Below, piece after piece: positions 3-61,924 of a stretch of 64,000 nucleotides of DNA (position 1 is the first letter of the stretch; each line of letters opens with the position of its first letter). Source of the DNA: Mycoplana dimorpha (GTDB lineage Bacteria; Pseudomonadota; Alphaproteobacteria; Rhizobiales; Rhizobiaceae). Location of the stretch: the NCBI RefSeq assembly GCF_003046475.1, contig NZ_PZZZ01000004.1, positions 223,195 to 287,194 of the forward strand, given 5' to 3'. Below the pieces are notes generated by a model. That model worked only from the letters and a program-made list of their open reading frames with translations. It was not told the DNA's origin and did no database searches. Both the position numbers and the translations under genes were made by a program.

Positions 3-101
3 CTGAGTAGAAGCACCCCCGCACGCGCCCTTCGTCTATCGGTTAGGACGTCAGATTTTCATTCTGAAAAGAGGGGTTCGACTCCCCTAGGGCGTGCCAC
101 C
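3..101 (+). repeat. Direct repeat copy A (tRNA-Glu plus -10 region)
   Basis: This 99-bp stretch is identical to 2476-2574. It covers a promoter -10 element (TAGAAG, 8-13), the leader and the whole tRNA-Glu gene. The two copies bracket the TRIC and M20 genes. The left limit is real: position 2 differs from its counterpart at 2475. Seen directly by base comparison. Confidence 0.85.
25..99 (+). tRNA. tRNA-Glu (anticodon TTC), copy 1
   Basis: A 75-nt gene with encoded CCA (97-99). The 7-bp acceptor stem pairs GCGCCCT (25-31) with AGGGCGT (89-95), the first pair being G-U. The anticodon stem TCAGA/TCTGA encloses a 7-nt loop with anticodon TTC at 58-60, and the T arm carries GGTTCGACTCC. The discriminator base is G96. 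A TAGAAG -10 element lies at 8-13; the matching -35 would fall outside the window. The gene is identical to the copies at 2498 and 2721. Confidence 0.97.
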
Positions 102-156
102 CCTTCCCCAGCGATGCATATCTCCGGACGAACCGCTTCGGATCACGGCACCGGCT

Positions 157-831
157 TCAGCGCGGCTTGTCTTCCTTGGAACAAGCGGCCTTCCGTCGAC
201 CGCGGGCCGAAAGGTGCGCGACCGGCAGTCGCCATCCATAGCGGATCGCCATGAAGCGGATGCCGAGGCACAGGGCGCCTCCCGCCAGCGCCGACCAGCC
301 ATAGGACGCGCCGATCTCGGAACCGCCGACGACGACGGCGGCACCGGCGAGCGCGGCCACGGCATAGAGGTCGGAGCGCAGGACCTGGGGAATTTCCCTG
401 AGGAGGACGTCGCGCGTCATGCCGCCGCCTATCCCCGTCAGCATCCCGAGGAGCGCGGCGGTCACCGGGCTTGCCCCGAATGCGAGCGCCTTCTGCGTGC
501 CGGCGACGGCGAAGAACGATAGTCCCACCGCGTCAAACATCAGGACGGGGCTGCGCAGCCGGTCGATACCGGCATAGGCGAGGAAGGTGATGAGCCCGGC
601 GATGACGGAAACCAGCAGGTACAGCCCATTGGTCAAGGCTGCCGGCGGCACCGCGCCGATCAGCACGTCGCGGGTTATTCCGCCGAAATTACCGGCCACG
701 AACGACAGGACGAGGATGCCGAACAGGTCGAGCCTGCGATTGACCGCCGCCAGCGCACCGCTGATTGCGAACACGAACGTGCCTCCAAGGTCGAGGACAC
801 GCGTGAAGGTGTCGATGGTGATCATGGTCAT
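157..831 (-). CDS. TRIC (trimeric intracellular cation channel) family membrane protein
   Basis: An integral membrane protein of about 224 residues with the duplicated three-helix TRIC (formerly UPF0126) architecture. Each half carries a hydrophobic hairpin ending in a glycine-rich stretch followed by TRDVL: GNFGGITRDVL near residue 50 and GIGGGMTRDVL near residue 135. Bacterial and archaeal homologues conduct K+/Na+, and similar family members are E. coli YicG and YadS. The N-terminus is uncertain. A GTG at 843 and ATGs at 831 and 825 are in frame; GGTGGA just before 831 favours an ATG. The C-terminus is basic and probably cytoplasmic. It lies between two identical tRNA-Glu copies, downstream of the M20 gene on the same strand (82 bp apart). 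Substrate ion and physiological role are inferred from family only. Confidence 0.88.
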   Translation of the reverse strand: MTMITIDTFTRVLDLGGTFVFAISGALAAVNRRLDLFGILVLSFVAGNFGGITRDVLIGAVPPAALTNGLYLLVSVIAGLITFLAYAGIDRLRSPVLMFDAVGLSFFAVAGTQKALAFGASPVTAALLGMLTGIGGGMTRDVLLREIPQVLRSDLYAVAALAGAAVVVGGSEIGASYGWSALAGGALCLGIRFMAIRYGWRLPVAHLSARGRRKAACSKEDKPR

Positions 832-913
832 TCCACCCGGCACGGCCTCCCCCGAAGCGTCGGAAGCAGCTGGCGCGATGCGGCCGCCGCCGCGAACGCT
901 TGACCGTACAGGA

Positions 914-2188
914 TCAGGTGGCGCCGAGCCAGGCCAGCGTGGCCACCACCATGGTCTCGACGCCTGTTTCCAAGGTCGGGTGCAGGACCGGCGCGAACTG
1001 CGGGCTATGATTGACCGGTAGCTGGTTCAGCCGGCCCGCTGCCTTGGCGTCGGCGTAGGTCTTGGGATCGGTGCCGCCCACGAACCAGAACACCGAGGGC
1101 ACCTGCCAGGCGGTTCCGAAGCAGCCGAAATCCTCGCTCGCCGGCGCCGGACCTGTGTGCCTGACTTTGTCGGGCGAGAAATAGCCGCGGAAGGCCTCGG
1201 CGACACGCTGGCTGGCAGCCTCGTCGTTGACGTTCAGCGGATAGCTGTCGAGTTGCGTGATCTCCGGCTTGCGCGGCGCCCCCGAGGCCTCCGCCTCGGC
1301 ATTGACGATCCGCTCGATTGCGGCGAGCACGTGCTCGCGTACCCCGGCATCGAAGGTGCGCACATTGAGCTTGATCAGCGCGTCGTCGGGGATGACGTTC
1401 TCCTTCGTTCCCGCCTGCAGCACGCCGACCGTGAGCACCGCCGCATCGGTGGCGGCGACTTCGCGTGACACGACGGTCTGCAGCCGCAACACGACCGATG
1501 CGGCCATGACAACGGGATCGATGCTCGCCTGTGGCATGGACCCGTGCGCCCCGCGCCCGAACAGGCGGATCTGCAGGCTGTCGGCGGCCGAGGTTATCGG
1601 TCCGGCGCTGCCGGCGACGAAACCGGCCGGCCCAACCATGACGTGCTGGCCAAGCGTGACAACCGGCTTGGGAAAGCGATCGAGCAGACCATCGTCGATC
1701 ATCGCGCGGGCGCCCTCGGCGGTCTCCTCGCCCGGCTGGAAGACCACCATCAGCGTGCCCTTCCAGGCGTTGCGCGCCTGCGACAGCAATGTCGCCGCCC
1801 CGACCAGCCAGGCCACATGCATGTCGTGGCCGCACATATGCCCCACCGGCACCGTCTTTCCATCCGCGCCCTTCACCGTCACGGTGCTGGCGTAGTCCAG
1901 GCCGGTGCCTTCGGCGATCGGCAGCGCATCCATGTCGGCCCGCAGCATCACGGTGGGACCGTCACCATTGCGAAGCAGTCCGACAACGCCGGTCTTGCCC
2001 ACCCCCGCCGTCACCTCGAAGCCCGCCTTGCGGAGCCTGTCAGCGGCAATGCCTGAGGTTCGCGTCTCCTGCATCGACAATTCGGGATGGGAGTGGATGT
2101 CCTTGTAGAGGGCTTCGATTTCCGGCAGAATCGCGTGCAGATTTGCCAGAACGGACGAAATTCCATCCGGGGATGCATGCTTGGCCAT
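914..2188 (-). CDS. M20 family metallo-amidohydrolase (hippurate/N-acyl amino acid hydrolase type)
   Basis: A protein of 424 residues with the M20D amidohydrolase layout: a zinc-binding catalytic domain interrupted by a dimerisation domain. Visible motifs are MLRADMDALPI near residue 85, GHMCGHDMHVAW near 115 (Cys and His ligands), FQPGEETAEGA near 150 (catalytic Glu pair) and a late SEDFG near 350. Such enzymes hydrolyse N-acylated amino acids, hippurate or indole-3-acetyl conjugates; the substrate cannot be told. There is no signal peptide, so it should be cytosolic. I chose ATG at 2188 because GGAGG sits 8 nt upstream; the frame also opens at a GTG at 2203 that overlaps that ribosome site. 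The TRIC gene follows on the same strand. Confidence 0.92.
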   Translation of the reverse strand: MAKHASPDGISSVLANLHAILPEIEALYKDIHSHPELSMQETRTSGIAADRLRKAGFEVTAGVGKTGVVGLLRNGDGPTVMLRADMDALPIAEGTGLDYASTVTVKGADGKTVPVGHMCGHDMHVAWLVGAATLLSQARNAWKGTLMVVFQPGEETAEGARAMIDDGLLDRFPKPVVTLGQHVMVGPAGFVAGSAGPITSAADSLQIRLFGRGAHGSMPQASIDPVVMAASVVLRLQTVVSREVAATDAAVLTVGVLQAGTKENVIPDDALIKLNVRTFDAGVREHVLAAIERIVNAEAEASGAPRKPEITQLDSYPLNVNDEAASQRVAEAFRGYFSPDKVRHTGPAPASEDFGCFGTAWQVPSVFWFVGGTDPKTYADAKAAGRLNQLPVNHSPQFAPVLHPTLETGVETMVVATLAWLGAT

Positions 2189-2456
2189 GGCGGTAACCTC
2201 CACCGGCCTGTCCTTCTTTGCCTGCGCTCAAGCTTCCGCGCCTGAGGCATCGGACAGGCCACGTACATTTTCATGGCGAGTGGCGGAGACGGCAAGCCCG
2301 TTTGCGGCGATCAAGCGATTGTGACCTTTCCTGCGATTCTGGGTTCAAAGCCAGCCGTACCGTAGGCTGCCATCGCTATTGCTAGGCCGCTGCTACGCCC
2401 GCTGCGCTGACCTTCGGGGCAACGCAACAAAAATGCGACAGCCGGTCATTTTTGCC

Positions 2457-2486
2457 CTTGCGCAATCGGCGGGGCCTGAGTAGAAG
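2457..2486 (+). promoter_or_regulatory. Promoter of tRNA-Glu copy 2
   Basis: CTTGCG (-35) and TAGAAG (-10) are separated by exactly 18 nt and lie 11 nt upstream of the mature tRNA start. The same spacing and near-identical hexamers precede the tRNA genes at 2721 and 3495, which supports a sigma-70-type tRNA promoter. Inference from repeated architecture. Confidence 0.6.
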
Positions 2487-2574
2487 CACCCCCGCACGCG
2501 CCCTTCGTCTATCGGTTAGGACGTCAGATTTTCATTCTGAAAAGAGGGGTTCGACTCCCCTAGGGCGTGCCACC
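2476..2574 (+). repeat. Direct repeat copy B (tRNA-Glu plus -10 region)
   Basis: Exact 99-bp match to 3-101. Beyond the right end the copies diverge immediately in the tRNA trailer. The -35 element of this copy (2457-2462) lies just outside the repeat. Confidence 0.85.
2498..2572 (+). tRNA. tRNA-Glu (anticodon TTC), copy 2
   Basis: Identical in all 75 nt to copy 1: acceptor stem with an opening G-U pair, TTC anticodon, encoded CCA at 2570-2572. It has its own promoter (2457-2486) and therefore does not depend on the other copies. Confidence 0.97.
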
Positions 2575-2677
2575 TCCCCTTCCTTAGCGGCTATGGGCCG
2601 GCTTTCCGCAGGCGATCGACATTCGCGCGCGCGTGCGTCCCGCGGGCAAAATAATTTGTCGAATCATCGTTTTAGGC

Positions 2678-2707
2678 CTTGCATAACGTCGGGGCTCTGG
2701 CTAGAAG
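2678..2707 (+). promoter_or_regulatory. Promoter of tRNA-Glu copy 3
   Basis: CTTGCA (-35), an 18-nt spacer, then TAGAAG (-10), 13 nt before the tRNA. The upstream DNA is otherwise different from that of copy 2, so the matching hexamers and spacing are unlikely to be simple duplication residue. Confidence 0.6.
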
Positions 2708-2720
2708 ACGGCCATCGCAC

Positions 2721-2795
2721 GCGCCCTTCGTCTATCGGTTAGGACGTCAGATTTTCATTCTGAAAAGAGGGGTTCGACTCCCCTAGGGCGTGCCA
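2721..2795 (+). tRNA. tRNA-Glu (anticodon TTC), copy 3
   Basis: Third identical 75-nt copy with encoded CCA (2793-2795). Identity to copy 2 extends only five bases upstream (CGCAC), so it is a separate duplicate with a diverged flank. It lies 148 bp from copy 2. Confidence 0.97.
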
Positions 2796-2837
2796 CCCTC
2801 CTCCGAAAGTCAAAGCCGGAAGTGATCGCAGACGGGC

Positions 2838-3323
2838 TTACTCCGTCCGCTGGTAGCGATAGCGGAAGGTGCAGCTGGAGGCGCCCGCCATGATCGTCTC
2901 CTTGCGCTCAAGCCTGATGTTCGGATCGTAGCCCTCACAGAACGTGCCGTCCCGGTTGCAGGACATCAGATGGCCGATCCCGGCCAGCCCCATCTCCCGG
3001 TAGGTCTCGGCATAGCGGCAGCGGGTGACGTTGAAGTCGTAGGCCTCGTCGGTCGCCTGGAGCACCTCGATCTCGAGCGCGCTGTCGGCGGTCCACAGTT
3101 CGTAGAGTTTGATGAAGCTCGCCATGCTCGTTTCGCCGCCGGGCTCCTTCGCGGCAAACGCCTGGCCCTCGGCGATCGCCGCCTTGCGAATCGCGCTGTC
3201 CAGGATGGCGTCCGCCTTCTCCTGCCCGATCGCCGCAACCATCTCCGCGTGGATCGGCCCGATCACCTGCGCCTGCAGGCGGCGTTTCAGAAGCACCGGA
3301 ATTTCCAGCGGCTTGTCGTCCAT
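2838..3323 (-). CDS. L-2-amino-thiazoline-4-carboxylic acid hydrolase family protein
   Basis: A cytosolic protein of 161 residues that resembles the ATC hydrolase family. The family is named for a Pseudomonas enzyme opening the thiazoline ring of L-2-amino-delta2-thiazoline-4-carboxylate on the route to L-cysteine. The N-terminal half is helical. The C-terminal half carries NVTRCRYAETYREMG, then a Cys-containing LMSCNRDGTFCEGYDPNI stretch, and ends in a TCTFRYR-like strand, the typical family finish. ATG at 3323 is chosen because GGAGAG lies 7 nt upstream; an in-frame ATG at 3338 would swallow that site. It stands alone between tRNA-Glu genes with no carbamoylcysteine hydrolase or racemase beside it, so the actual substrate is open. 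Confidence 0.72.
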   Translation of the reverse strand: MDDKPLEIPVLLKRRLQAQVIGPIHAEMVAAIGQEKADAILDSAIRKAAIAEGQAFAAKEPGGETSMASFIKLYELWTADSALEIEVLQATDEAYDFNVTRCRYAETYREMGLAGIGHLMSCNRDGTFCEGYDPNIRLERKETIMAGASSCTFRYRYQRTE

Positions 3324-3450
3324 TGCAATGCTCTCCATGCAACCATGTCCCGCCGAGACCGTAAGCGATCGCCGGCATCGAACGCAACCGGTCCGGCCAT
3401 CACGGGCCGCCGCCTTGCAGGCCTGCCCTCGCAGCCGTCCCCGCCGCCGG

Positions 3451-3480
3451 CTTGCCGGACGAGCGGTAAGCCCCTATATT
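3451..3480 (+). promoter_or_regulatory. Promoter of tRNA-Glu(CTC)
   Basis: CTTGCC (-35), an 18-nt spacer and TATATT (-10), ending 14 nt before the tRNA. Same spacing as the promoters at 2457 and 2678. Confidence 0.6.
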
Positions 3481-3494
3481 GCCGGAATCCACGG

Positions 3495-3569
3495 GCGCCC
3501 ATCGTCTAGCGGTTAGGACACCGCCCTCTCACGGCGGCAACACGGGTTCGAGTCCCGTTGGGCGTACCA
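3495..3569 (+). tRNA. tRNA-Glu (anticodon CTC)
   Basis: A 75-nt gene with encoded CCA (3567-3569). The acceptor stem pairs GCGCCCA with TGGGCGT. The anticodon stem CCGCC/GGCGG holds loop CTCTCAC with anticodon CTC. It reads GAG, the usual preferred Glu codon in high-GC genomes, while the TTC copies read GAA and GAG by wobble. TTTT at 3570-3573 directly after CCA may serve as a short terminator. Confidence 0.97.
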
Positions 3570-59333: not shown

Positions 59334-60155
59334 TCAGCCGTAGATGCTGTAGAGAAAGCGCGCCCCCACCAGCAGCAGGAAGACGCCGAAGCCGATCTCC
59401 AGTTGGCGCCTGCTCAGCGCATGCGCCAGCTTCACGCCATACGGCGTGACGGCGAGCGCGATCGGGATGATCAGCGCCACGGCGATCCAGTTGACGAAGC
59501 CGGTCGACAGCGGCGGCAGCCCCGGCGCACCCCAACCGGCCCAGATATAGCCGAACAGGCCCGGAATCGAGATCAGCACGCCCACGCCGGACGACGTCGC
59601 CACCGCCTGGTGGATCGGCCGGCCATACATGGTCATGAAGGTGTTGTTCAGCACCCCGCCGCCGATTCCCATCAGCCCGGACAGCGTGCCGATGACGACG
59701 CCGGCGATCCATCGCCACGGATTGGGCGGCAGGTCCCGCCCGAGCCGCCAGTGCGGCTGGTCGAGCAGCATGCGCAGCGCCACGGCAAAGGCGATGGCGA
59801 CGAAGATCAGCCGCAGCCCCTGGCTCGAGATCAGCGCGGCGATCACCGCGGCAAGGATCGCACCGAGCGGCAGTGCCACGATCCAGCCCTTCAGGAGCTC
59901 CAGGTCGACCACGCCGAGCTTGCGGTGGCCGGTGAACGAGCGCAGCGACGTCGGCACGATGATGGCGATCGAGGTTCCGATCGACAGGTGCATGCGCACC
60001 GCCTCCGGCACGTCGAGATAGCCGAATACCTGGTAGAACACCGGTACCAGGATCGCCCCGCCACCAATGCCGAAGATGCCGGCGAGCAGGCCCGAGACGA
60101 CACCCGCCGCGGCAAGCGCAAGGGCGAACACGATGAGGTCGGTGACGGGGGGCAT
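59334..60155 (-). CDS. TauE/SafE family sulfite/anion exporter
   Basis: A 273-residue carrier with eight or nine helices in two TauE halves. Each half starts with a Gly-rich block: LAGIFGIGGGAILVPVF near residue 22 and LSGLMGIGGGVLNNTFM near 160. Family members move sulfite, sulfoacetate or other organosulfonates; the substrate is not given by context. GGAG lies 5 nt before ATG 60155. The upstream region holds the candidate sRNA on the other strand. Confidence 0.92.
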   Translation of the reverse strand: MPPVTDLIVFALALAAAGVVSGLLAGIFGIGGGAILVPVFYQVFGYLDVPEAVRMHLSIGTSIAIIVPTSLRSFTGHRKLGVVDLELLKGWIVALPLGAILAAVIAALISSQGLRLIFVAIAFAVALRMLLDQPHWRLGRDLPPNPWRWIAGVVIGTLSGLMGIGGGVLNNTFMTMYGRPIHQAVATSSGVGVLISIPGLFGYIWAGWGAPGLPPLSTGFVNWIAVALIIPIALAVTPYGVKLAHALSRRQLEIGFGVFLLLVGARFLYSIYG

Positions 60156-60249
60156 GGCGGCTCCAGACAGGGGGCGAGGACTCGCAAGGAGTCGAACAGG
60201 TTCGCAACTGTCATCAAACGCGAAGAATTTCAATCATTGTCTCGATCGA

Positions 60250-60415
60250 GGTGCACAGGCGTGGCACGATCATCGCCTGTGCGCTTCCACTCGCAATGAC
60301 TGCGAAAACCGCCTGCGTTTCCCTGTACGCGCCGCGGACCGGATGGATGAACCGTCCGCAAGATCGACCGCTTCGGTCGTTCCCCTTCGGCCAGTCTTCG
60401 CGCTGGCCCTTTTTC
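60250..60415 (+). ncRNA. Candidate small RNA with four hairpins and a terminator
   Basis: On the plus strand four stems follow in a row: GCACAGGCG/CGCCTGTGC (60253-60282, 12-nt loop), GCGGAC/GTCCGC (60334-60359), CGACCG/CGGTCG with a CTT loop (60365-60379) and GGCCAG/CTGGCC (60389-60408), the last followed by CTTTTT. No plus-strand gene precedes it for this terminator to serve. The 5' end and promoter are not determined; the region could instead be the untranslated leader of the minus-strand TauE gene. No match to a named RNA family is claimed. Confidence 0.5.
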
Positions 60416-60427
60416 ATGCCGGCGTGG

Positions 60428-61627
60428 CTAGAGGCTGCAGTGCCGGTAGCCCGACTTCCGCATCCGCAGGTCGAAATGGAAATGGTCCGTGTGGAATCGG
60501 TCGCTGCCGGGACCGAGCACGGTGGTGAAGTACTTGCAGCTGTCGGTGCGCACCGCCTTCAGCAGCCCCTTTTCGCGGAAGGCGAAGAAACCCTTCCTTC
60601 GGACCAGGATCTCCTTGCCGCTGTTGAGCACGATCTTGCCGACGTCGATCGCGTTGCCCCTTGCATGTTCCGACATCGCCGCGCCGCGCTGCGAGTTCAT
60701 GGTCCGGCAGGAATAGGAGGACATCTGGTGGATCGAGCGGACGCCGGAGAGGTAGCGAAGCCGCGCCGAGGGCGCGAGCTCGTTCTTCACCCACTTCGCG
60801 AAGGCCTCGGTGATCTGGCAGTTGACCCGCGCCGCCGGCTTGATCTGGATGCCGCCGGAAAGGGCCTGCAGCTCGATCGGATAGGCGATGCCGCAGGACC
60901 GCCCGCTCGAGAACGCCGGGACGTCGCGATAGGTCACCCCGAGCCGCTGCAGCCGCTGCCGGCAGGCCTTTTCCGCGGCCGGCATGCCGCCGTGCGATTC
61001 CGGCACCGCCATCGGATCGGTGAAGCGCGGGATGAAGGCGACCTGCTGATCCTGCCCAGCCGGCTTGGACCCGGACGCTGGCGCCCGCAGGCCGATCTCG
61101 CCGCCCGCCTGGCTCATCGGCACCGGCAACGGCTGACCGAGCTGCCGGGGTGTATCCGTGCCGATCCCGTCGACCATCACCTGCGTGGCGTTGCCCTCGG
61201 CGATCTCTTCCGCCTGGGCCTCGGCCAGACCCTGGATCGGTTGCTGCCCCGATCCGTGGGCCGCCCCCACGCCGAGCCCCGCATCCATGTTCACGCCATC
61301 GTCGGGGATCTGCAGGGTGCCGCCCGCCATCGACGCCCGCGCCGCACCATTCGCGCCAAGCGCCGCGTCGCTGTCGATAATCGGCAGCTGCCTGGACGTG
61401 CCCGGCACGACCGCATAACCGTCGCCCGCCGATGTTACCGGCATGGTCTCGGTCGGATAGGCAGCCGCCCCCTCGGCGCCGATCGCACGGGCGGGCGTGA
61501 TCGCATTCACGGTATTGTCGCCATCGATGCCGACCGGCGGCGTCAGATCGCCCGAGCAGCCGGCGACAAACACGGCCGCCAGCAGCGCGCGCGGCATTCG
61601 CCGGGAGAAAAAGCACGCAGTACCCAT
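60428..61627 (-). CDS. Extensin-like (LAS-type) envelope lipoprotein
   Basis: A 399-residue predicted lipoprotein: signal peptide with lipobox FVAGC near residue 25, a 190-residue unstructured Gly/Ala/Pro linker, and a C-terminal extensin-like domain (about 225-399) with conserved cysteines. Inside it SEHARGNAIDVG near 325 and TDHFHFDLR near 383 reproduce the SxHxxGxAxD...HxH zinc pattern of VanY/MepA peptidases. Role in peptidoglycan cleavage is therefore plausible though the family is named after plant extensins. ATG 61627 has GGGAG 5 nt upstream. Confidence 0.87.
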   Translation of the reverse strand: MGTACFFSRRMPRALLAAVFVAGCSGDLTPPVGIDGDNTVNAITPARAIGAEGAAAYPTETMPVTSAGDGYAVVPGTSRQLPIIDSDAALGANGAARASMAGGTLQIPDDGVNMDAGLGVGAAHGSGQQPIQGLAEAQAEEIAEGNATQVMVDGIGTDTPRQLGQPLPVPMSQAGGEIGLRAPASGSKPAGQDQQVAFIPRFTDPMAVPESHGGMPAAEKACRQRLQRLGVTYRDVPAFSSGRSCGIAYPIELQALSGGIQIKPAARVNCQITEAFAKWVKNELAPSARLRYLSGVRSIHQMSSYSCRTMNSQRGAAMSEHARGNAIDVGKIVLNSGKEILVRRKGFFAFREKGLLKAVRTDSCKYFTTVLGPGSDRFHTDHFHFDLRMRKSGYRHCSL

Positions 61628-61924
61628 CATGTCTCCCGTAACGAATGCCGCCTCTTGCCCGGAAAGGTCCGCCGTTCTGCCGCCCATCGTGCAGACGCCT
61701 GTGTCCGCAATCGGGTGAAAATTGCCGCACGAGCCGCGGATCGGCTTACGCCCTGTGGCACCGGCAAATTTTAGGCCGACAGGGTAAACGAAGTGTTTCG
61801 CGCCGCCCCGCCGCAATCGGCAGTCAGCCTTAGCGCGTGACGGAAAGTTCCTCGCCGCTGGCCGCGGCTGCCCTTCCTCTGCCGCCGAGAGTCGGCTACA
61901 CGGTTTCCTTCAACGGGAGTTCGA

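Follow-up and report, generated by a model that had tools for sequence, protein, structure and literature searches.

This locus raises a simple question: what, if anything, is encoded in the gap between a TauE/SafE-family gene and a gene for an Extensin-like_C protein in Mycoplana dimorpha? In the window—the whole 64,000-nucleotide stretch of DNA analysed here—the two neighbours (59334-60155 for the TauE/SafE-family gene, which is missing in some relatives, and 60428-61816 for the extensin-like gene, which may in fact begin lower, for instance at 61639) both lie on the minus strand. An earlier note, made from the DNA letters alone, had described consecutive plus-strand hairpins between them and proposed either a trans-acting RNA of about 160 nt or a cis leader of TauE read on the other strand. 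Our preferred reading, to which we give a probability of roughly two in three, is that a trans-encoded sRNA gene occupies the plus strand at about 60247-60414; the sRNA would act by base pairing, and its relatives carry an upstream box presumably bound by PhoB. Comparison across genomes shows a predicted structured plus-strand RNA that ends in a terminator, a box in the same orientation in the relatives, and a synteny that is independent of TauE across several Rhizobiaceae genera. Folding, homologs and a covariance model all point to the predicted sRNA of about 168 nt, the 5' end of which is placed 22-25 nt after the box and the 3' end of which is the T run. The predicted gene lies outside the TauE gene and is convergent with the extensin-like gene. 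A plus-strand open frame of 507 codons (60251-61774), antisense to the extensin-like gene, also spans the RNA, and is taken as a high-GC artefact.

Partition-function folding predicts plus-strand hairpins throughout 60246-60414, as the earlier note had claimed for 165 bp, with the correction that their number is six instead of four. Hairpin H1 (60248-60287; 14 + 3 pairs) has diverged from its relatives, and its inner part, GCACAGGCG/CGCCTGTGC, is the perfect 9-bp first stem described earlier. Hairpin H2 (UCGCA-AUGAC-UGCGA, 60291-60305) is among the best conserved elements, whereas H3 (60309-60337) carries the loop UUCCCUGU in place of the CCCC loop of its relatives in the genus. Both the alignment and the partition function support H4 (CGGAUGG-AUGAA-CCGUCCG, 60340-60358). 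H5 (60362-60382), predicted by the partition function, is followed by the unpaired CCCUUC at 60383-60388, and H6 (60389-60408) by a single C and then TTTTT at 60410-60414, an intrinsic terminator; the earlier note had described a last hairpin with five T. The stretches predicted to be unpaired are CACGA, AUGAC, UUCCCUGU, AUGAA, CCCUUC and CUUCGC.

This structure is unusually stable for its composition. The plus strand of 60240-60425 has a folding energy of -82.8 against a mean of -65.8 for dinucleotide shuffles (z = -4.06, with 0 of 200 shuffles as good), and z falls to -5.28 (300 shuffles) for 60246-60414, limits that were chosen after the first folding. The corresponding values for the minus strand are -1.65 and -1.75. 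Among 400 tiles of the window (169 nt each, both strands, coding sequence included, 40 shuffles per tile), the lowest z was -4.24 and none reached -5.28. The terminator on its own is less telling: a single terminator-like site, H6 with its T run, was found in 59500-61500 against 0.7 expected in these 2 kb, so that it is not beyond chance and gains its weight from conservation in homologs. No match to a sigma-70 promoter was found in the same interval.

Homologs are readily found within the genus. A DNA search of 61 genomes returned matches in 8, including M. dimorpha itself, and those in G001, G003 and G005 are the RNA locus. The genome of M. dimorpha holds the RNA at one place, together with two further short and weak matches from the search for relatives that fall, by eye, in coding stretches. 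When the neighbourhoods of all six other Mycoplana genomes were compared, the RNA was present in five (G001, G003, G004, G005 and G006) and absent from G002, where the gap measures only about 145 bp. The G002 gap (L028, 2730-2875) holds a degenerate box-like sequence, CTCTCATTAATCGGTGAC. In each of the five homologs the RNA closes with an equivalent terminator, and the distance from a genus-conserved upstream stretch, TTTCAATCA, to the T run is 245-251 nt in these five versus 187 nt in the window. The single-sequence z values of four of the homologs (L116-L119) are modest, from -1.4 to -2.9; a strong z belongs to the window copy, to the one in G086 (L109, -5.7) and to some others.

The pairing itself is supported by compensatory changes, as had been proposed as a check of the sRNA reading. 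In an unfitted MAFFT alignment of the six sequences, RNAalifold found 58 pairs, of which 10 had both partners changed with pairing retained; the covariation term reached only -0.42, which probably stems from misalignment of the shorter window row in its 3' part. A core covariance model built from five sequences, searched with strict filters and with 9 candidates scored per genome, matched 6 of 394 Rhizobiaceae genomes—six of the seven in the genus—and none of the other 387 passed at E 0.01. Against 28 loci of other genera, the model gave one match below E 1, the syntenic L069 of G086 (E 0.0088). In a seven-sequence alignment that adds this locus to the six of the genus, 96.2% of 209 cells are paired and 11 of 31 pairs show changes on both sides; none of 500 shuffles reaches any of five measures, and slid structures pair only 35-48%. 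This alignment was fitted to the covariance model and hence leans towards it, so the strongest counts should be read with that in mind; the changes were nevertheless found, and the reading of a structured RNA stands. Some search routes led elsewhere. A two-element pattern hit six stretches in genome contigs, five of them from the genus and one in a Campylobacterales MAG that, lacking a model match up to E 1, was set down to chance; TCGCAATGAYTGCGA with one mismatch proved too common as a search word (178 of 247 genomes); and plasmid records gave no match for the window RNA or for one short form of the family described below.

A shared sequence ahead of the RNA extends the comparison. All five homologs in the genus are preceded by the box TGTCAyGAAACcGTGAy, one of them reading CGTCA; spelled out, it is TGTCAYGAAACNGTGAY, for which G003 has CGTCAT, and then TTTTCAATCA or a close variant, and in M. 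azooxidifex DSM 100211 it is GTGTCATGAAACCGTGAT. The window keeps a remnant, CTGTCATCAAACGCGAAG, on the plus strand at 60208-60225, with the first half-site intact and the second eroded. Downstream of it, TTTCAATCA (plus strand, 60228-60236) would occupy the -10 position, if the spacing given in the part of PMC3616915 covered here applies.

A strict form of the box, TGTCAYSAAACNGTGAY, yielded 28 matches in 27 of 394 Rhizobiaceae genomes from 7 genera, four of them in Mycoplana, with a single match for the reversed control. The box occurs once per genome in 26 of these 27 genomes. Its invariance among the 28 matches arises by selection, and the boxes of the genus homologs and of L069, L071, L072 and L073 were recognised independently of the strict pattern. 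An extensin-like, TauE or ABC gene, at least one of the three, lies within 1.5 kb of 27 of the 28 matches. The only off-locus box of the family search (L136 in G203, 1501-1517) stands 107 nt before a gene for a small secreted-looking protein of 112 aa. On the RNA strand, a hairpin with a T run follows within 340 nt of the box at all 27 loci; the opposite strand of these stretches has none (0 of 27), and of the control tiles drawn from these loci 18 of 378 do so. In L125, L126 and L129 the first T run, which was the one taken, is probably not the true end of the RNA. Moreover, at 26 of the 27 box loci the strand of the RNA folds more stably than the complementary one, and z lies below -3 for 14 RNA strands versus 3 complements.

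The same picture emerged when the search started from the neighbouring protein. The extensin-like protein had matches at E 1e-60 in 80 of 131 genomes, and the best 30 of the 80 were taken, 28 of them outside the genus. Within about 1.4 kb and allowing up to two mismatches, seven of these 28 best-matching loci carry the box in the orientation of the RNA and none in the other, and the remaining 21 have no box. Of the 28 gaps, 21 were inspected, and several of these combine a box with a compact RNA and a terminator opposite the strand of the extensin-like gene. The distance between box and extensin-like gene varies, reaching about 1 kb in L067, and L122, L124, L125 and L129 have no such gene within 1.5 kb. 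Beyond the genus, similarity of sequence hardly reaches, and kinship rests on synteny, box and layout.

Two forms of the RNA can be told apart by length. The short form, seen in 15 sequences from three genera, measures 91-108 nt from its approximate start and consists of a variable hairpin, the invariant linker TGATTTGCA, a second hairpin and a terminator; the loop region of the second hairpin contains UCCC in 14 of the 15 sequences, the exception being L115. The long form, of about 214-263 nt, has more hairpins and is found in Mycoplana and three other genera. We infer that both forms belong to one family from their common place, orientation, box and layout, not from their sequence. A 12-mer complementary to the linker is present in 8 of 10 short-form genomes, eight times at the RNA locus and only twice elsewhere, so no simple conserved perfect target for the linker emerges.

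Which regulator the box serves is suggested by its likeness to PhoB boxes, for which the part of PMC2573895 covered here gives the consensus CTGTCAT(N4)CTGTCAT. Scored over 14 bases, the boxes of 28 relatives depart from this consensus at 2-5 positions and that of the window at 5; the best relatives thus match 12 of 14 bases, in fetched loci where sites with three or fewer mismatches occur at 70 per Mb, boxes included. As in PhoB-activated phosphate starvation promoters, a sequence near the consensus would lie at about -35; here, by contrast, the second half-site reads GTGA instead of GTCA, and what follows the box is a predicted non-coding RNA. Of the 33 predicted S. meliloti PhoB boxes for which a start has been mapped, the section of PMC3616915 on which we draw places 16 over the -35 position, 22-25 nt upstream, and H1 of the window begins 22 nt after the box, which is that same spacing. 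In a set of 199 genomes from the order, 6 carried the strict pattern (control, 0), and in two of these, from one genus of another family (L159 in G419 and L160 in G553; 1501-1517), it stands 52/54 nt before the ATG of a calcineurin-like metallophosphoesterase gene that is followed by a family 4 glycosyltransferase gene. We take this pair to be PlcP-Agt-like. PlcP is PhoB-activated according to the portion of PMC3972451 considered, and the box before a PlcP-like gene in another family therefore suggests PhoB. The gene settings of the other four order-level matches show no evident link. In L158 (G576, 1141-1157), from another family, a cold-shock-like frame has its ATG 129 nt downstream of the box.

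The strongest competing explanation concerns this regulator and not the RNA. The box might be bound by another response regulator or by a dimeric regulator, in which case the RNA would answer a different signal. The arrangement GTCAY-N6-GTGAY is both a dyad and a degenerate direct repeat, the G of GTGA departs from the PhoB consensus, and the phosphate genes of the genus offer little that resembles the box: five of seven pstS loci have boxes with 2-4 mismatches in other wording, and phoX has no box below 4 mismatches. Set against these points are the up to 12 of 14 consensus matches, the same pattern before the PlcP-like gene and the S. meliloti-like spacing of the window copy. A regulator other than PhoB is thus a serious possibility, though not one that we favour; PhoB control of the RNA family appears somewhat probable from the sequence evidence. 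The same control is doubtful for the window copy, given that the second half of its box is lost.

Under PhoB control, the following course of events may be envisaged. In the relatives, PhoB, active in phosphate starvation, would bind the box, which would stand in for a -35 element, and transcription of the RNA would start 22-25 nt downstream. The RNA would then act by base pairing: its CCC-rich loops—UUCCCUGU and CCCUUC in the window, UCCC or CCCC in most relatives—would mask the ribosome binding sites of target mRNAs, whose translation would fall. In M. dimorpha, the loss of the second half of the box implies that the RNA is probably expressed less or placed under other control. The best reading of these sequence comparisons is an sRNA that was ancestrally phosphate-controlled and that evolves fast while remaining syntenic.

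A further explanation, which we consider improbable, is that the RNA is real in the family while the window copy, having lost its activator site, is decaying and no longer functional. Besides the missing second half-site, this copy is about 60 nt shorter than its congeners, scores 40.4 bits with the covariance model against 126-142 bits in its genus relatives and breaks several of the model's pairs; moreover, G002 has lost the RNA outright. Yet the window copy keeps its terminator and most core hairpins, some of them by compensatory change, and it folds better against its shuffles than any of the 400 tiles.

Slightly less probable still is a cis element: it would be the minus-strand 5' leader of TauE, or else an antisense RNA acting on TauE or on the 3' end of the extensin-like mRNA. 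The geometry would allow it: the RNA and the region upstream of TauE overlap, and 13 bp separate the end of the RNA's T run from the stop codon of the extensin-like gene, so that transcripts may overlap. The fate of TauE in the genus argues otherwise. The gene is complete in G001 and G006, both of which have the RNA; in G004, a fragment with a 44-residue match (about residues 231-273; L032, 3342-3473) remains beside the sRNA; and in G003 and G005 it is absent from the locus, with the best TauE relatives elsewhere only 45-46% identical. TauE is therefore missing or fragmentary in three of the six genus members that have the RNA, which indicates that the RNA is independent of it. The minus strand, with its z of -1.75, is not unusually stable, and outside the genus box and extensin-like gene stand about 1 kb apart (L067), or there is no such gene within 1.5 kb (L122, L124, L125 and L129). 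Of the two options in the earlier note, the TauE leader is thus not supported, and the trans-acting RNA of about 160 nt is the one favoured by the compensatory changes, the plus-strand terminators, the similarly oriented box of the relatives and the apparent persistence of the RNA without TauE. That note was also right that the T run terminates neither TauE nor the extensin-like gene, both being on the minus strand. Finally, a small protein can be dismissed as highly improbable: in each of the six genus members that have the RNA, a frame starts at an ATG within H2, but these frames range from 22 to 128 codons, have no evident Shine-Dalgarno sequence and contain indels that are not in threes, and no reading frame is conserved among the six.

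The RNA has no match at gathering level among the Rfam families, those of alpha-r and suhB included. Over the whole window, Rfam gave four gathering-level matches, all tRNA, and over 60100-60600 no match at E up to 5. Apart from the sRNA locus, the window contains four tRNA-Glu genes within 3.5 kb (25-3569), three with the anticodon TTC and one with CTC. Eight syntenic loci returned five matches with E no higher than 1, none of which reached gathering level; the best was Bp1_781 (E 0.0046, 26 bits versus 80), and some cover the RNA or its complement.

In the accessible passages, sections and listings covered, no sRNA is described at an extensin-like locus, and none of them gives an S. meliloti sRNA an extensin-like neighbour. 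Phosphate-responsive sRNAs of S. meliloti are already in print, as far as these sources extend. In the part of PMC2573895 used here, sm3', sm14, sm25, sm30 and smA5 are candidates with a predicted PhoB site and, like the window RNA, predicted intergenic RNAs with a PhoB-like site; their gene orientations are < < < or < > >, unlike the < > < here, a comparison made by description only. AbcR1 and AbcR2 (alpha-r15) of S. meliloti are likewise short intergenic RNAs with few stem loops and have CU-rich anti-Shine-Dalgarno motifs in unpaired regions, similar to those predicted here, going by the passages of PMC7143759 considered; they differ in lying at SMc01226-lsrB, and the present RNA has no Rfam match, different loops and a PhoB-like box in its relatives. 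RFMSmelA075 and RFMSmelA099, as far as PMC3927594 was covered, share the layout of several hairpins each with a C-rich loop, but the loops are CCUCCUCCC instead of the UCCC or CCCC found here, and they occur in several copies per genome on each replicon, unlike the mostly single box at a fixed locus. Similar in setting is sm11, listed in PMC2573895 as < > < beside SMc01671 with 99-244 nt, which fits the short form; its promoter is listed as NN and s70, not PhoB, in a comparison made by table entry only. That sm11 is the short form is a guess; that some entry of the S. meliloti catalogues is the short form may well be the case.

Tentatively, the syntenic loci with the box may represent one PhoB-switched sRNA gene of the Rhizobiaceae at the extensin-like/TauE/ABC site, with short forms of about 100 nt and long forms of about 230 nt and with the window copy rewired or released from this control. 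On that tentative view, the two forms would share promoter and place and hardly any sequence, and the family would not yet have been recognised as one. Since the box occurs once per genome in nearly all genomes that have it, the link to phosphate is directly testable. If the reading holds, several Rhizobiaceae genera would share an sRNA able to relay a phosphate signal to the translation of other genes, much as RyhB relays an iron signal. It would also mean that the place and promoter of an sRNA gene can persist while its sequence turns over almost completely—a family that searches by sequence or covariance alone would miss.
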